Positions 5,649 through 44,171 of a stretch of 64,000 bases of DNA are shown piece after piece (position 1 is the first letter of the stretch; each line of letters opens with the position of its first letter). Made by a program: the position numbers and the translations under genes. The stretch spans positions 372,001 to 436,000 of the forward strand of contig NZ_CP047025.1 of NCBI RefSeq assembly GCF_009796845.1, read 5' to 3'. This DNA comes from Cobetia sp. L2A1 (GTDB taxonomy: Bacteria; Pseudomonadota; Gammaproteobacteria; Pseudomonadales; Halomonadaceae). The notes below the pieces were generated by a model. That model was given only the letters and a program-made list of their open reading frames with translations. It did not search any database and was not told where the DNA came from.

Positions 5649-5864
5649 ATTCATTCACAAGAAGGCTTGACGTCAGGGTAGGTTGAGGTGCATAGTAGCG
5701 TCTGTTGGATAGCAAGACGCACCACTCAGTCGCCTGCGCAGTTCGGTTTCACGCCTTGAGCGCGCCGAAATGCCTCGCTGATTTGATGCATGGTTTTGCT
5801 TTGCCCACGCTCTTCGGGTAACGCCCGTTTAAATTAAACATGCTCATCAGAGAGGATATTTCTC

Positions 5865-6071
5865 ATGGCTACCGGTACAGTTAAGTGGTTCAACGACGCT
5901 AAAGGTTTTGGTTTCATCGCTCCGGCTGACGGCGGTGACGACCTGTTCGTTCACTTCTCCGAAGTTCAAGCAGATGGCTTCAAGACTTTGCAGGACGGCC
6001 AACAGGTCTCCTTCGACGTCACCCAAGGCCAGAAAGGCCTGCAGGCAGCCAACGTCAAGGCTGTCGACTGA
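5865..6071 (+). CDS. Cold-shock protein, CspA family
   Basis: 68-residue single-domain cold-shock protein that binds single-stranded RNA and DNA. RNP1 (KGFGFI) and RNP2 (LFVHF) are intact, and the whole length is typical of the family ([18 protein letters not shown] at the start). The ATG at 5865 follows an AGAGGATA ribosome binding site and a leader of up to 216 bp containing no other gene, which may act as an RNA thermosensor as in other csp genes; I see no specific cold-box match. A strong terminator follows at 6115. Which csp paralogue it is, and whether it is cold-induced, cannot be told. Confidence 0.96.
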
Positions 6072-6114
6072 TTATCACTCAATGCGGAGTTCTCTCCGTG
6101 TGAGATGATAGATG

Positions 6115-6151
6115 TCAAAACCGCCCCAGCTTATGCTGGGGCGGTTTTTTT
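6115..6151 (+). terminator. Rho-independent terminator of the cold-shock gene
   Basis: Perfect 10-bp stem CCGCCCCAGC (6121-6130) / GCTGGGGCGG (6135-6144) with a TTAT loop, followed by seven T residues and preceded by AAAA. Confidence 0.95.
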
Positions 6152-38113: not shown

Positions 38114-39424
38114 TTGAACACGCGTTTCCCCTTCGCGGACTGGTTTCGCAATTCCTCGCCCTATATCAACGCTCATCGTGGGCGCACCTTCGTCATTTTG
38201 ATCGAGGGTGACGCCCTGTCTTCCTCACGACGAGCACAGCTGATTCAGGATCTGGCGCTACTACACACGCTTGGCGTTCGCCTGGTGGTGGTATTCGGCG
38301 TTCGGCCACAGGTGAAGGATGCACTGGATGCCGCAGGGATTGAGGCTGAGCGTCACAAGGGTCGCTGGGTCGTCACACGGGAAATTCTGGGGCACCTGGA
38401 GCAGCAGGTGGCTACGTTGCGCCTGCGCCTGGAGGCCAGTCTATCGCTGGGTCTGCCTAATACACCGCTGCATGGCGTCGAGCTCACTGCTATCTCGGGC
38501 AACCTGGTGATGGCCAAGCCGCTGGGTGTACGTGATGGTATCGACTTCCTGCACGGGGGTGAGGTGCGACGTGTGCGCAGTGAAGCCATTCAAGGGTTGC
38601 TCTCTCAGCAGGCGATCGTCGTGCTGCCCCCATTGGGGTTCTCCAGTACGGGTGAGGTGTTTGATCTGGATGCCGCCGAGGTTGCGGAGCATGCGGCTAT
38701 CGCGCTGGCGGCAGACAAGCTCATCCTGTTGGGTGAAGGCGAGGGGCTATTGGGTGACGATGGTGAACTGTTGCGTCAGCTCAATCCTGATGAAGCTGCT
38801 GCGCTGGCACCGCCGCGTGAGGATGATAGCGAGCTATCACGCCACTTGGCAGCCGCCTGTGGCGCCGCACGGCATGGTGTTGGGCGCACTCACTTGCTGA
38901 GTTGGCGTGATCGAGATGCCCTGTTGGGTGAGCTATTCACCCGCGATGGTATTGGCACGATGATCACGCGTCAGGGCTATGAGCAGCTGCGCAAGGCGCG
39001 TCTCGAGGATGTGGGTGGTTTGCTTGCGCTGCTCGGGCCGCTGGAACAGCGTGGCATCCTGGTTGCCCGTTCTCGCGAACGTCTTGAACATGAAATTGAC
39101 GATTACGTAGTGCTGGCGCGCGATGGCATGATCATCGGCTGTGCCGCACTGCATGTCAGTCGTGATGCCCAGATGGGTGAGCTTGCGTGTGTGGCCGTGC
39201 ACGATGATTATCGACGCGGTCAGCGCGGCGAGCAATTGCTGACGGATATCGAGCTACGTGCGCGCCGTGCGGGGCTGACTCGGCTATACGCACTGACGAC
39301 GCATACTGTTCACTGGTTCATTGAGCATGGTTTCGCGTCTGCTGCGCTTGAGGATCTACCGCCCATGCGACGTGAAGCCTATAACTCGGCGCGTCAGTCC
39401 AAGGTGTTGCTCAAGACACTTTAA
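38114..39424 (+). CDS. argA: Amino-acid N-acetyltransferase ArgA (N-acetylglutamate synthase)
   Basis: 436 residues from a TTG at 38114 (LNTRFPFADWFRNSSPYIN), preceded eight bases by GGAG and matching the E. coli N terminus (FRHSVPYINTHRG); an upstream ATG at 38075 would add 13 hydrophobic residues. First step of arginine biosynthesis: acetylation of glutamate. The N-terminal amino-acid-kinase-like domain (about 15-290: VFGVRPQVKDAL, SGNLVMAKPLGVRDGIDF) binds arginine as inhibitor; the C-terminal GNAT domain (about 295-436: GTMITRQGYEQLRKA, ELACVAVHDDYR, RGEQLLTDIE) is catalytic. Full length. Confidence 0.93.
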   Translation: MNTRFPFADWFRNSSPYINAHRGRTFVILIEGDALSSSRRAQLIQDLALLHTLGVRLVVVFGVRPQVKDALDAAGIEAERHKGRWVVTREILGHLEQQVATLRLRLEASLSLGLPNTPLHGVELTAISGNLVMAKPLGVRDGIDFLHGGEVRRVRSEAIQGLLSQQAIVVLPPLGFSSTGEVFDLDAAEVAEHAAIALAADKLILLGEGEGLLGDDGELLRQLNPDEAAALAPPREDDSELSRHLAAACGAARHGVGRTHLLSWRDRDALLGELFTRDGIGTMITRQGYEQLRKARLEDVGGLLALLGPLEQRGILVARSRERLEHEIDDYVVLARDGMIIGCAALHVSRDAQMGELACVAVHDDYRRGQRGEQLLTDIELRARRAGLTRLYALTTHTVHWFIEHGFASAALEDLPPMRREAYNSARQSKVLLKTL

Positions 39425-39442
39425 CGAATCGCGTATTTCCGG

Positions 39443-39500
39443 CACCCGATGTGTGTTTGTCCTTCTGTCTTCTGGAGGGTGAGCCGGCATCGGGTGTTTT
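39443..39500 (+). terminator. Possible terminator after argA
   Basis: 9-bp stem CACCCGATG (39443-39451) / CATCGGGTG (39488-39496) followed by TTTT. The loop is long (36 bases), so confidence is modest. Confidence 0.45.
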
Positions 39501-39540
39501 GCATAGTAACGTTGCACTTTCACTACAGCGCTTCATTTTA

Positions 39541-39558
39541 TGTCTTGCAAGAGAGACG
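39541..39558 (+). promoter_or_regulatory. GlrR-like upstream activating site
   Basis: TGTCTTGCAAGAGAGACG fits TGTC-N10-GACA, the known GlrR (QseF) site upstream of enteric glmY, except for the last base. It lies about 190 bp before a sigma54-type promoter, within the usual range for an enhancer. A further palindrome, TTGTCAATTTGCGACAA (39608-39624), has the same half-sites with a 7-bp centre. Confidence 0.45.
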
Positions 39559-39729
39559 TTATAAGGTGTTGATATATATCTATAAAATGGGATGCTACGG
39601 ATTCGTGTTGTCAATTTGCGACAAATGAGAGGCAAAAACAGACCAATATCTCGGCTAGAGGCCACTTTACCAGTTTCGCAATCATTGTATTTTTTTAAGT
39701 TATTGATTTTTAAAGCATTTTGTAATTTA

Positions 39730-39745
39730 TGGCACGTTGCTAGCT
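39730..39745 (+). promoter_or_regulatory. Sigma54-type promoter upstream of glrK
   Basis: TGGCACGTTGCTAGCT matches TGGCACGNNNNTTGCW with one mismatch; the -24 GG and -12 GC are at the required spacing. Predicted transcription start near 39756. The next protein start is 740 bp away, so the first transcript is probably non-coding. Confidence 0.6.
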
Positions 39746-39755
39746 ATGTATATCG

Positions 39756-40020
39756 TGAGCCAGAGTTAGCGGCCGTATGACTCGCCCTATCTCTGGCCTG
39801 ACAGCGATGACGGTACTCACTACCCTGTGCGCCCCGTGATCGCTGTCAGGCCAAGCGTCTGCTCCACGCGTTGTGTGACTTCAGGTTGCGATGAGACAGG
39901 TACGGCCCTTCGTGGGCAAGGAAAGTATCTTGAGGGCAAGGATGCCCGGGCATGGATGCCCGATACCGGATGCGGTGGTTGTCTGATTGTGCCGCCGTCA
40001 TCTCAAGATTGACTGTTGAT
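39756..40020 (+). ncRNA. Candidate sigma54/GlrR-dependent small RNA (GlmY-like position)
   Basis: From the predicted sigma54 start the RNA would fold immediately: a 7-bp stem GCCAGAG (39759-39765) / CTCTGGC (39791-39797), then a 14-bp perfect stem GGCCTGACAGCGAT (39795-39808) / ATCGCTGTCAGGCC (39839-39852), then a GTATC/GATAC stem enclosing GGCA..TGCC repeats (about 39925-39965). No start-codon frame of note is present. In enterobacteria this spot, upstream of glrK, carries the small RNA GlmY, which is driven by GlrR and sigma54. Primary sequence is not obviously GlmY. The 3' end is not defined; transcription could run to the terminator at 40296. Confidence 0.45.
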
Positions 40021-40295
40021 GCTTTCTGTTTGGTTCAAGCGTGAGTCATGAAAGCGCTTTGCTAAACAAAGGTTTCAACGTGTGGCATTGCGATGTGTTG
40101 CCCCCTGCTTCACATCCGATAGGGAGCGCGGACCTCGTCCGTAGTGAATGTCGGCTAACCTGGAACGACCACCAGGTGATGTTCTTTTCTCCCGGACCTG
40201 ACAGGCAGACCACCTGACAGGCCCACCAATCACAATGTGTCTCCAGGTATTAGAGGCATGTTGTGATGACTGACCCTTCAGTTCCCTGCGTACTT

Positions 40296-40323
40296 GGGCC
40301 GGCTCTGCCGGCCCTCTTTTTTT
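40296..40323 (+). terminator. Strong terminator in the non-coding region before glrK
   Basis: Perfect 8-bp GC stem GGGCCGGC (40296-40303) / GCCGGCCC (40307-40314) with a TCT loop and a run of seven T. No protein gene ends nearby; the previous gene stops 870 bp upstream. It therefore marks the 3' end of a non-coding transcript. Confidence 0.9.
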
Positions 40324-40418
40324 GTGCATCACACTGTACGTCTAACGATGATGGGTCATCGACTTCATCATAAATACCGGCCAAGAGGCTGTCTGTCTCG
40401 TGGCGGGGTAATGGTTTA

Positions 40419-40437
40419 AATAAGAATCATCTTTATT
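40419..40437. promoter_or_regulatory. Possible Fur box before glrK
   Basis: AATAAGAATCATCTTTATT agrees with the 19-bp Fur consensus GATAATGATAATCATTATC at 13 positions and lies 62 bp before the glrK start. Motif-only evidence. Confidence 0.3.
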
Positions 40438-40498
40438 AACGAACTGGCAACCGCGATGGACGCTGGCGAACTCTGGTATTCTTGGAAGACGTGATTCG

Positions 40499-42028
40499 AT
40501 GATGACCACCCCTTTCCTGCATAGAGTTTTCTCAATGGCCTCCACGGTGTCACGACGCTGGCGTCCCCGCTCCCTGCCTCAGTTAGTGCTGATGGCCTTC
40601 TTTGTGGTGATGCTGCCGATCGCAGTGCTCATGTTCCAGGCGGGACAGGCGTTGTCAGAATTGTCGGAACTTGCCGACGTCAGCGCCCGTCAGGCAGTTG
40701 ATCAGACCCGACGTGCCCGCACGCTGACCAATCTCGCTGTCGAGATGGAGCGTAGCGCTCGTCAGTACGCGGTACTGGAAAACCCCGATCTGATGAAGAT
40801 CTATGCCGACAAGGCCAGCGCTTTTCGAGAGCTGCTGGATGCACAGGCGCGCCTGCTCGGTGAAGGAGACCCGCGTGTCAGAGAGCTGAAAAGCACGCTG
40901 TCAGAGCTGGAGCGCATGCCCGAAATGAGTGTGGCGCAGGTCAGCAGCCATCTAGAGAACTTCGGCCCCTTCTCGATACAAGCCAGCGGTTTGCTCAACT
41001 CTACCCGTGAACTCGTCGATGCCCGTATCGAGGGTATCCGTGCGCGTGCGACTCAGGTGAAGAATCAGTTGTGGTGGCAGACGGCAGCACTGGTCTCTAT
41101 CAGTCTGCTGCTGATGCTGTTCTTTACCTGGCTGATCATTCGCCCCATTCGTCAGCTGGAACGTCGTATCAATGGCCTTGGCAGTGGTGATGACAGCGCG
41201 CGGCCAATCGTGATCAAGGGGCCGGCCGAATTGGTGCAGCTGGGTGAGCGTCTCAACTGGCTGTCGATGCGTCTTGATGAGCTGGAAGAGCAGAAGCAGC
41301 AGTTCCTGCGCCACATGTCCCATGAACTCAAGACCCCGTTATCCAGCATCCGCGAGGGTACCGGGCTTTTGATTGACGAAGTGGCAGGGCCGCTGAGCCC
41401 TCATCAGGCCGAAATTCTTGGCTTGCTGGACGATTCCAGCAAGGAATTGCAGAAGCTTATCGAGCAGCTCCTCGACTACAATCTGTTGCAGCATAATCAA
41501 GGGCTTGAGAGAAGCCGCTTTGATGTCCATGAAGTCTTCAAGGAAGTACTGGCCAAGCACCGGCTAGCACTGGAAAAGAAAGGCATGAAAGTGCATCTTC
41601 CGCCTGCCAGTCTGAACTGGGAGGCCGACCGGCCGCGAACAGGGCGCATTCTCGATAATCTGATTTCCAATGCCATTGCTTATGGCGAAGATGGCGGAGA
41701 TCTATGGCTGAGGGCGCGCAAGGAGCGCCGTCAGCTGGTCATCGAGGTCGCTAACAGCGGCGAGCCAATTGCCGCTCAAGATCGCGATCACCTGTTCAAA
41801 CCCTTCTATCAGGGTGCGGTGAAACGCAAGGGGCCACTCAAGGGCTCTGGTATTGGCCTCTCAGTGGCGGCTGACAGCGCCCGCGCCCAATTTGGTCAAT
41901 TGGTGCTGGTGGACGATGCCAGGGCGGATGTCTGTTTCCGACTGACATTGCCCACAATGACTCGTGCGCTGTCGCTGTCGCCAGGGGAAGGCAGCGAGTC
42001 TGATCTGCAGGCAGGGAATGCATACTGA
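40499..42028 (+). CDS. glrK: Sensor histidine kinase GlrK (QseE)
   Basis: 509-residue inner-membrane kinase. Membrane segments at about residues 29-52 and 185-207 frame a periplasmic helical domain; a HAMP region follows (IIRPIRQLERRINGLGSGD). H-box HMSHELKTPLSSIREG places His275; the ATPase domain shows LDNLISNAIAYGEDGG and KGSGIGLSVAADSARA. Gene order with a lipoprotein gene and an NtrC-type regulator downstream matches enteric glrK-qseG-glrR (qseEGF), which controls small-RNA and envelope responses through sigma54. Start at ATG 40499; a second ATG follows immediately. Confidence 0.92.
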   Translation: MMTTPFLHRVFSMASTVSRRWRPRSLPQLVLMAFFVVMLPIAVLMFQAGQALSELSELADVSARQAVDQTRRARTLTNLAVEMERSARQYAVLENPDLMKIYADKASAFRELLDAQARLLGEGDPRVRELKSTLSELERMPEMSVAQVSSHLENFGPFSIQASGLLNSTRELVDARIEGIRARATQVKNQLWWQTAALVSISLLLMLFFTWLIIRPIRQLERRINGLGSGDDSARPIVIKGPAELVQLGERLNWLSMRLDELEEQKQQFLRHMSHELKTPLSSIREGTGLLIDEVAGPLSPHQAEILGLLDDSSKELQKLIEQLLDYNLLQHNQGLERSRFDVHEVFKEVLAKHRLALEKKGMKVHLPPASLNWEADRPRTGRILDNLISNAIAYGEDGGDLWLRARKERRQLVIEVANSGEPIAAQDRDHLFKPFYQGAVKRKGPLKGSGIGLSVAADSARAQFGQLVLVDDARADVCFRLTLPTMTRALSLSPGEGSESDLQAGNAY

Positions 42029-42115
42029 CAGCGCGGATCATCAGCCTTTACTGCCAGTACATACCACATAAAATGGCACCAATGAGTGCCATCAAACACG
42101 CAAGGAACTGAAGTG

Positions 42116-42682
42116 ATGAAGGGTCAACGACTACTGCTGAGCCTTACTGCCTGCGTGCTGCTCAGTACCCTCAGTGCCTGTGGGGTCCTGTCAAGCATGA
42201 CCTTGCCGGGCACTGAATCTGCAGCCATGAGTCCTGGTGTCGAAACCAGCTGTCTTGGGGCCGGTGATCTACCGGACTTCGCGGGGGAAGATTGCCTGCT
42301 GGATGAATGGGTCGCCTTCGCCCTGCAAGCGCAACGCGGTAATGGTGACTGGCGCAGAAGTACGCTGGTACAGCTGGAAGGGACCCGTCATGATCGTCGC
42401 CTCGCCCGCGCTATATTGTTGAGCTGGGGTGATGAGTCAGACTGGGAGCACGCTTCCGATTTGTTCAAGGCCGATCTGCCGACGGCGCCGAGTCGCCTGC
42501 AGCCGTTGCTACGTCAGTGGCTCAATGGGCTCGAGGAACGCCGCGATCTGATTGATGAGCGTGACAAGAGCGAGAGTGCTCGTCGCAAGCTGAGTGCCGA
42601 TAATGCTCAGCTCAGCAAGAAGCTCGAAGCATTGACTGCCATCGAGGAATCCATCAATTCTCGCCGCCAGAGCACGCCCTGA
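42116..42682 (+). CDS. qseG: QseG-like outer-membrane lipoprotein
   Basis: 188 residues from the ATG at 42116 (MKGQRLLLSLTACVLLSTLSACG), with AAGGAACTGA as ribosome binding site. Signal peptide and lipobox LSAC at about residues 20-23 mark a lipoprotein. The C-terminal third is a coiled coil (RRKLSADNAQLSKKLEALTA). Its place between glrK and glrR matches QseG, which in enterics contacts the GlrK periplasmic domain and is needed for its signalling. Sequence similarity alone would be weak; position decides the call. Confidence 0.8.
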   Translation: MKGQRLLLSLTACVLLSTLSACGVLSSMTLPGTESAAMSPGVETSCLGAGDLPDFAGEDCLLDEWVAFALQAQRGNGDWRRSTLVQLEGTRHDRRLARAILLSWGDESDWEHASDLFKADLPTAPSRLQPLLRQWLNGLEERRDLIDERDKSESARRKLSADNAQLSKKLEALTAIEESINSRRQSTP

Positions 42683-42803
42683 AGTCTCGGCGACTGCCTC
42701 TGGCCACGATCTGTCACCGGCCCATCTGGCTAGGTGACGCAAGACTGTGCGGGCCTGGCGGCCGGTTGTCCCCACGCCGCCGAGTGACGCAAGGAGAGTT
42801 AGT

Positions 42804-44171
42804 GTGAAATACGCTCAAGCGCATATTCTGCTCGTTGATGATGATGCGAGCCTGCTCAAGCTGCTCGGCATGCGTCTCGAAAGTCGTGGCTTCAAGGTCA
42901 CGACTGCTGGGAGTGGCCGTGAGGCGCTTAACCGTCTCGAAACTGCACGTCCTGATCTGGTCTTGTCAGACCTGCGCATGGACGAAATGGATGGCATGGC
43001 ACTGTTTGGTGAGCTACAAAAGCGCCAGCCAGGCATGCCGGTCATCCTGTTGACGGCGCATGGCTCGATTCCGGATGCCGTCAGCGCCACGCGTCAGGGG
43101 GTGTTCAGCTTCCTGACCAAGCCGGTCGACAAGGATGAGCTGTTCGCGGCCATCGATGAAGCGCTGGCACAGGCGCCGCCGGTAAAGGAAGGCGATGATG
43201 CCTGGCGGGCGGGTATCATCACGCGCTCTCCGCAGATGGAGCAGATTCTCGAACAGGCTCGCATGGTAGCAGCCTCGGATGTCAGCGTGCTGGTCACTGG
43301 CCCGTCCGGTTCCGGCAAGGAGCTGATGGCCAAGGCGATCCACAATGCCAGCCCGCGTGCTTCCAAGCCCTTTGTCGCCATCAACTGTGGCGCGCTACCG
43401 GAGCAGCTGCTGGAAAGTGAGCTGTTCGGCCACGCCAAGGGCTCCTTCACTGGTGCGATCAGTGCGCATCAGGGCCTGTTCCAGGCCGCGGATGGCGGCA
43501 CACTGTTCCTGGATGAAATCGGCGACATGCCGTTGGCATTGCAGGTCAAGTTGCTGCGTGCGCTGCAAGAGCGTCAGATTCGTCCACTGGGATCGACCAC
43601 CTCGATCGCCATCGACGTGCGCATCATCTCTGCCACGCACCGTAATCTCGACAAGGCGATGCATGACGGCGACTTCCGTGAAGATCTCTACTACCGCCTC
43701 AATGTGGTCAATCTCAAGCTGCCGGCCCTGCGTGAGCGGGCCGAGGATGTGCCGCTGCTGGCCAAGTATCTGATCAGTCAGGCTGCTGCGCGCCACAAGC
43801 CTTTCGTGAAGGGCTTCTCACCGGAAGCGCTGAATCTGCTGGCCTCCAGTGCCTGGCCGGGCAACGTGCGTCAGCTGGTCAACGTGGTCGAGCAGTGTGT
43901 CGCACTGACCAGCTCCTCGATGATTCCTGAAGCCTTGGTCTCTCAGGCACTGGCCGCAGAAGAGAACGCACTGCCGTCCTTCTCCGAGGCGCGTGCCGGC
44001 TTTGAGCGCAGCTATCTGATCAAGGTGCTGAAGATAACCGAAGGCAACGTGACGCAGGCCGCCCGAATCGCGGGGCGTAACCGTACCGACTTCTACAAGC
44101 TGTTGGGGCGTCATGATCTTGAACCGGGCGTCTTCAAGCCGGGTGCCGAGCAAGGGCCGCCTGATTTCTAG
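42804..44171 (+). CDS. glrR: Sigma54-dependent response regulator GlrR (QseF)
   Basis: 455 residues from a GTG at 42804 ([18 protein letters not shown]), 7 bases after AAGGAGAG. Receiver domain with VDDD, Asp56 ([10 protein letters not shown]) and Lys in TKPVDK; AAA+ domain with Walker A GPSGSGKE (about 167-174), the sigma54-contacting loop SFTGAIS in place of GAFTGA, and Walker [12 protein letters not shown]-terminal Fis-type helix-turn-helix ([20 protein letters not shown]). Activates sigma54 promoters; the predicted target is the sigma54 promoter upstream of glrK. The first loop residue change (S for A/G) is known in GlrR-type activators. Confidence 0.93.

Follow-up and report, generated by a model that had tools for sequence, protein, structure and literature searches.

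Does the stretch without a protein gene that precedes glrK, qseG and glrR in Cobetia sp. L2A1 encode a small RNA and, if so, is this a diverged form of the enterobacterial GlmY or something different? The window analysed here is a 64,000 nt stretch of the genome, to which all coordinates refer. A preliminary description had noted approximately 1.07 kb lacking a protein gene directly before the three genes, and this proves accurate: 1074 nt (39425–40498) lie between the end of argA at 39424 and the start of glrK at 40499, overlapped in the open reading frame list only by mechanical frames of 61–85 aa. Across the relatives compared, single-base, frame-breaking insertions and deletions are tolerated within the conserved core of the RNA. 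The elements of the locus are as follows.

39541..39558, + strand: distal GlrR/QseF-type site, TGTC-N10-GACG, 189 nt before the promoter start
39606..39623, + strand: proximal GlrR/QseF-type site, TGTT-N10-GACA, one mismatch, 124 nt before the promoter start
39696..39708, + strand: IHF-type site TAAGTTATTGATT, between the GlrR-type sites and the promoter, matching YAAN4TTGATW, which we take to be the IHF consensus
39730..39745, + strand: putative sigma54 promoter (−24/−12) TGGCACGTTGCTAGCT, one mismatch, with a counterpart in relatives
39756..40322, + strand: predicted RNA gene, from a start at about 39756 (by promoter spacing) to the end of the terminator T-run, drawn from conservation and fold
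39795..39852, + strand: long 5′ hairpin with a 14-bp perfect stem, kept at its place in relatives with changed sequence
39851..39962, + strand: most conserved core, modelled as R1, from conservation and the covariance model
39917..39923, + strand: CAAGGAA, first ANGGA element, lacking a perfect stem in the window species
39934..39947, + strand: CsrA/RsmA-type hairpin GGGC-AAGGAT-GCCC, from the hairpin scan and core structure
39948..39961, + strand: CsrA/RsmA-type hairpin GGGC-ATGGAT-GCCC, from the hairpin scan
40274..40292, + strand: near-invariant 19-nt box CCCTTCAGTTCCCTGCGTA, a candidate antisense seed with complementarity to flhD
40296..40322, + strand: intrinsic terminator GGGCCGGC-TCT-GCCGGCCC plus T-run
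40499..42028, + strand: glrK (qseE), histidine kinase by Pfam, 94 % identical to that of Cobetia crustatorum and 93 % to that of C. amphilecti
42097..42115, + strand: qseG leader and ribosome-binding site (RBS) CACGCAAGGAACTGAAGTG, complementary to the box at 16 of 19 positions, a candidate target within the organism itself
42116..42682, + strand: qseG, lipoprotein-like, starting at the ATG after the RBS (the open reading frame list has a longer GTG start at 42086)
42747..44171, + strand: glrR (qseF), sigma54 activator response regulator by Pfam (Response_reg, Sigma54_activat), the true start of which may lie further in

The box, the terminator, the GGA hairpins and the proximal GlrR-type site went unnamed in the preliminary description. 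We take 42116..42682 to be qseG from its position, its product having matched no Pfam family. Immediately upstream of glrK, at 40471–40482, there is furthermore a CTCTGGTAT[TC]CT-like sequence, present in the named relatives too, which resembles an extended −10 element, as if glrK had a sigma70 promoter of its own after the terminator.

A putative sigma54 promoter with GlrR-type sites

Both the one-mismatch sigma54 promoter at 39730–39745 and the TGTC-N10-GACG site at 39541–39558 proposed in the preliminary description are present. Counted within the window alone, each occurs at chance level (4 such promoters against 3.9 expected, and 24 one-mismatch activator sites against 28.8 expected), and the case for both therefore rests on comparison. 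Eleven named relatives were considered, two Cobetia and nine Halomonas, with a twelfth locus, L014, being left out as it displayed only a 26 % match over part of the kinase. In all 11 a sigma54-type site stands at the corresponding place, matching TGGCA[CT]-N5-T[CG]GC[AT] 513–760 nt upstream of glrK, and is followed by a conserved RNA-like segment and then a terminator. Comparison across the Halomonadaceae had been suggested in the preliminary description, and its outcome is that promoter and stems are conserved, the former in 11 of 11 named relatives and the latter with paired changes.

A wider scan covered 99 members of the RNA family, with the core locus L061 being left out as its box pattern was unmatched. 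Taking the best-scoring site up to 620 nt before the box, without a shuffle control, a sigma54-type site was picked in 98 members, 96 of them canonical; for L139, where the script picked none, and L053, where it mis-picked, CGGC-type sites were located by eye. The 98 include 94 distinct RNAs, with 4 counted twice, and counts across related genomes are not independent. The GlrR/QseF consensus is given as TGTCN10GACA in an excerpt of PMC8745638, and near-consensus sites number 127 in the 260 nt upstream of the 98 promoters, compared with 6.1 in dinucleotide shuffles. A site within one mismatch is found at 82 of these promoters and at none of the other 16. The position of the distal site is conserved among relatives, the commonest bin being 180–199 nt from the promoter (49 sites), with 41 sites at 100–139 nt and 31 at 200–239 nt. 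Relaxed IHF sites occur in 49 of the 98 promoters (strict ones in 38) within 220 nt, versus 3.6 expected in shuffles, with 30 IHF-type matches lying 30–39 nt and 26 lying 140–179 nt before the promoter. For E. coli, an excerpt of PMC6075780 describes a sigma54 promoter of glmY that is activated by QseF with the help of IHF. On this comparative evidence, a sigma54/GlrR-driven small RNA upstream of glrK is strongly supported.

The RNA body and its distribution

The strong stems reported in the preliminary description both exist, as a 7-bp pair (39759–39765 with 39791–39797) and a 14-bp perfect pair (39795–39808 with 39839–39852), and are mutually exclusive in full, because bases 39795–39797 are common to both. 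The first 145 nt are predicted to fold at −66.1 kcal/mol (z −4.5), and the whole 570-nt RNA displays a z of −5.9. Within the 5′ domain, 11 of 16 consensus pairs carry changes on both sides amongst 12 sequences. For the core structure this holds for 10 of 22 pairs, compared with 1.9 in shuffled alignments, a count in which the modelled structure is favoured by the fitting of the alignment to the covariance model.

The most striking feature of the body is its ANGGA hairpins. A hairpin with an ANGGAN hexaloop is bound by RsmE, as set out in an excerpt of PMC7652899, in which sequestration via GGA hairpins is also recorded as published for relatives. Across the 98 RNAs, a search for ANGGAN hexaloops closed by a stem of three or more pairs returned 189, where shuffles give 10.2, whilst seven control motifs yielded 4–15 each, near their own expectation. 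At least one such hairpin is found in 94 of the 98, and the window RNA has two perfect examples. The stems vary (GGGC/GCCC, GGGA/TCCC, TCCC/GGGA) and the loop is constant. Four RNAs lack the hairpins and keep the box, namely L128 and the glrK-linked L141, together with L133b and L134b, and it is because of these that promoter, box and terminator are to be seen as the constant parts of the family. The CsrA of Halomonas hydrothermalis is 86.44 % identical to that of E. coli according to an excerpt of PMC12889724, and we infer that the ANGGA hairpins would bind and sequester CsrA.

A covariance model built on a 108-position core matches 76 of 121 genomes of the family, six of them twice, and the box (up to one mismatch) occurs in 83 of the 121, compared with none for a reversed-box control; this threshold misses diverged boxes, such as those of G096, G013 and L061. 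Both argA and glrK lie alongside 75 of the 81 core matches in the fetched loci and the window, the remaining six being second copies, all in one genus. The number of box copies varies from one to three per genome. Twelve copies have neither argA nor glrK nearby (L052–L057, L126 and L128–L132), and at L133 and L134 a second, tandem RNA is located upstream of glrK. Each extra copy comprises a sigma54-type site, then a middle part that varies from 52 to approximately 280 nt, the box or a variant thereof, and a terminator, with a GlrR-type site scored in 7 of the 12 copies that have neither argA nor glrK nearby. Since further copies occur at other loci, the RNA genes are, as far as sequence can tell, a family sharing one seed. 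In the genome of the window species itself, two further model matches (E 0.67 and 4.8) were inspected as possible second core copies and set aside, as both lie, by eye, inside coding sequence.

Beyond the family, an order-level sample of 293 genomes, a dozen of them from the Halomonadaceae, yielded no convincing core or box match. The core model matched six of these genomes, five within the family and one, L096, outside it, where the match is weak, lies beside an IS-like stretch with a transposase-like reading frame and is probably due to chance. A 16-nt part of the box was found in eight, all in the family. Amongst genera without the RNA, no GlrK orthologue was found in g10 (4 genomes sampled), g5 (3) or g24 (1), and in g16 (2), g17 (1), g18 (1) and two g3 genomes the gap between argA and glrK is, by eye, approximately 155 nt or less. 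The loci with the short gap (L367, L368, L369, L371, L372 and L373) lack the RNA naturally while GlrK-like kinases are present, and the main genus without the RNA is g10.

The box is also carried by viral contigs, five of which possess it exactly and 12 of which contain a 17-mer of it. In seven of the 12 (L015–L019, L357 and L359) the box is followed by a terminator with a stem unlike that of the host; the other five were dropped (one coding-like stretch, no terminator). Up to 400 nt upstream of the box in these seven, no TGGC-type sigma54 site was found. Several of them have a long GGCCATCGGG.../...CCCGATG stem upstream. Over the 2000 nt compared, the copy at L127, in genome G014, does not differ from viral contig L015 and is therefore a resident prophage. 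The viral copies can be read as RNAs of the phages that have their seed in common with the host.

The box and its candidate targets

The reverse complement of the box is TACGCAGGGAACTGAAGGG. The box itself may also be complementary to 23S rRNA. Its exact sequence occurs once in the organism's own genome, where the only other match, at 3 mismatches, is the qseG leader. A search of 19 genomes for ACGCARGGAA before ATG returned qseG in the same species and in relatives, thrS, and, in G003, flhD. At qseG, one A–C mismatch is kept in most species in which the site is recognisable, and this gene is the best RBS match and candidate target in the organism's own genome. The thrS RBS (L173), in the same genome and in relatives of the genus, reads ACGCAAGGAA, one mismatch from the box complement. 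Searching this genome with the short CAGGGAA gave 107 sites, too many to use, and an 11-nt box match at L297 has no clear gene downstream.

Complementarity to the flhD RBS was then examined across the family. FlhD was found in 96 of the 121 genomes, and 90 of these 96 loci were read. GCAGGGA lies within 30 nt before flhD at 43 of 74 loci from box-bearing genera, versus none of 16 from genera without the RNA, and ACGCAGGGAA precedes flhD at 23 of the 74 versus none of the 16. GCAGGGA is confined to six of the 15 box-bearing genera (g2, g4, g6, g12, g19 and g20), at 43 of their 45 loci; the other nine have it at none of 29, although most of these nine genera display shorter matches of the CAGGG- or AGGGAAC- type. 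When averaged by genus, the longest exact flhD match is 7.71 for the 15 box-bearing genera versus 4.0 for the three without the RNA, with g13 counted as box-bearing on a diverged box; if grouped as box-lacking, the values become 7.97 (14 genera) and 4.0 (four). Shuffled boxes average 4.39 and shuffles preserving the Shine–Dalgarno (SD)-like core 5.23; in 200 shuffles of each kind, the observed 7.71 was never attained. For the duplex between box and flhD, predicted energies fall mostly between −14 and −26 kcal/mol where the genus bears the box, compared with −7 to −16 in others. An RBS-pairing sRNA would be expected to have a conserved seed that is complementary to the RBS of an mRNA, this RBS being conserved as well; for flhD such a match is found, and strongly so in six of the 15 box-bearing genera.

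It is apparent, however, that flhD alone cannot explain the box, because g7 and g22 have conserved the box as well. In g7 (three of three loci, at −6 to −10 kcal/mol) and g13 (one locus) there is a box or diverged box and no flhD match worth naming, and in g22 flhD was not found. Nor did the search of 121 genomes find flhD in the genome of the window species, in G006 or in G068, and a ACGCAGGGAA-ATG site was likewise not found in the former. The 5′ half of the box is unpaired with flhD. Generic ACGCAGGGAA-ATG sites are present in 85 of the 121 genomes, including genera without the RNA, and besides flhD they precede pilC (G005, G097), pilQ (G005, G029) and flgG (G021), as well as many unrelated genes and non-gene sites. 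The RBSs of pilC, pilQ and flgG match the box over 10–11 nt in a few genomes (L303, L305, L339, L347 and L312). Pfam identifies one pilC (T2SSF) and the flgG piece (Flg_bb_rod), and for one pilQ gives GspD N0 and STN below cut-off; the remaining pilC and pilQ identities were assigned by eye. As targets, the pil and flg genes are suggestive only.

Mechanism and competing explanations

What has been computed comprises conservation, the sites for promoter and activator, the hairpins and their compensatory changes, the box, the terminator, the copies and RBS complementarity. The explanation that we favour, with modest confidence, is a sigma54/GlrR-controlled sRNA that joins a CsrA-sequestering body to an RBS-pairing box, the latter repressing flhD, with qseG as the candidate in the organism itself. 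GlrR, encoded just downstream, would act at the sigma54 promoter to switch on the RNA, helped by a bend that IHF introduces into the DNA separating GlrR from polymerase. The body, with usually two and sometimes three ANGGA hairpins, would sequester CsrA, whilst the box would block translation by pairing with RBSs, chiefly the RBS of flhD, master gene for flagellar synthesis. In the window species, pairing of the box with the qseG RBS would constitute feedback on the GlrK-QseG-GlrR system. Transcription, dependence on GlrR, CsrA binding, repression and physiological output are all inferred from the computed features. In E. coli, flhDC mRNA is stabilised by CsrA (excerpt of PMC7652899); if this holds here, CsrA titration and flhD pairing would therefore both lower motility. 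A broader proposal is that the Halomonadaceae possess a GlrR/sigma54 sRNA family, encoded at between one and three loci in each genome, in which CsrA titration is coupled to an almost invariant antisense seed against flhD and other motility-related RBSs, and that temperate phages of these hosts independently acquired this seed before their own terminators, plugging into or mimicking the circuit. Taken whole, this is possible, although we hold it only tentatively.

An unlikely, if still serious, alternative is that the RNA is mainly a CsrA sponge of the CsrB/RsmZ kind under GlrR, with the box being a 3′-end element (a site of protein binding or of processing, for instance) and the flhD match secondary. 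The ANGGA hairpins are indeed the strongest structural signature, the box is kept where flhD is unmatched or not found (g7 and g22), and viral copies retain box and terminator with no ANGGA-type hairpin in a GCANGGANGC pattern search, which is consistent with a 3′-end function. The four members that keep the box without an ANGGA hairpin argue the other way, as does the flhD complementarity, which exceeds that of SD-preserving shuffles and is missing from genera that lack the RNA. CsrB/CsrC and RsmX/Y/Z, which are controlled by GacA/UvrY, likewise present ANGGA hexaloop hairpins, several to an RNA, but the present RNA differs in usually having only two perfect ones, in its added antisense box and in control of the GlrR/sigma54 type; none of the Csr/Rsm families of Rfam matched. 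As to the favoured combination of body and box, E. coli McaS is a single RNA that both titrates CsrA and base-pairs with motility mRNAs, that of flhD among them. McaS is not, to our knowledge, sigma54/GlrR-driven, and the effect predicted here is repression at the flhD RBS, such that the two are likened by role and not by sequence. The Vibrio Qrr sRNAs are sigma54-driven, LuxO-controlled and share a seed. Likened by description rather than sequence, they resemble the present RNA in their sigma54 control, in a seed that some genomes carry more than once and in possible feedback on their own regulatory locus; they are unlike it in that GlrR-type sites are found here and the copies differ greatly outside of box and promoter.

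That the RNA is a functional counterpart of GlmY/GlmZ, bound by RapZ, controlling glmS or envelope precursors and drifted beyond recognition in sequence, is improbable. Judged from sequence, it shares with GlmY/GlmZ of the Enterobacteriaceae its place before glrK/qseE-qseG-glrR/qseF, a sigma54 promoter, TGTCN10GACA-type sites and IHF, and one genus has paired core copies, one at glrK and the other elsewhere. The preliminary description had entertained a GlmY diverged beyond recognition, but no GlmY/GlmZ covariance match was obtained up to E 10 in 39200–40800, nor at gathering threshold in the window, and the RNA differs in its ANGGA hairpins, its RBS-complementary box and its length of approximately 570 nt. 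We take hairpins of this kind and a 19-nt box before the terminator not to be GlmY features. The conserved parts point to CsrA and RBS pairing, and the number of box copies per genome is not fixed. No Rfam family reached threshold in 39425–40498, with matches to suhB/mmgR (21.4 of 41 gathering bits) and SorY (19.3 of 111) over the terminator region being set aside as terminator resemblance; the sole Rfam match at gathering threshold in the window is the cspA thermoregulator RNA at 5704–6149. The other option in the preliminary description, an unrelated RNA under GlrR, fits the evidence, as the RNA occupies the GlmY position with different conserved parts. Given the likeness in position, activator-site type, IHF and sigma54 control, both may still derive from a common ancestral RNA at this position. 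The present RNA is apparently undescribed, no account of it having been found amongst the papers listed in searches of open-access PMC text, as judged from titles and abstract openings.

Even less probable is that the transcript belongs to glrK as a long 5′ leader and is no RNA in its own right. It does lie directly upstream of glrK on the same strand, and an excerpt of PMC8745638 reports glmY and qseEGF of P. mirabilis as an operon; however, a strong terminator ends 176 nt before glrK, all 98 members have a T-run after the box, and copies with no glrK nearby share the layout. A conserved non-functional or DNA-level element, such as an attachment or replication site, can hardly be credited, for although the box recurs in viral contigs, the RNA stems carry compensatory base changes, and the stem of the terminator that follows is not the same in host and phage, so that the box is no copied DNA core.

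Should the favoured explanation of a CsrA-sequestering, RBS-pairing RNA hold, the GlrK-QseG-GlrR/sigma54 module would, outside of the enterobacteria, drive a different RNA, serving motility and CsrA rather than amino-sugar supply, and a sigma54 input would be added to the Csr network. The box and the RBSs that it matches would offer a clear seed–target pair, and the viral boxes suggest that the seed of a host sRNA is carried by phages.
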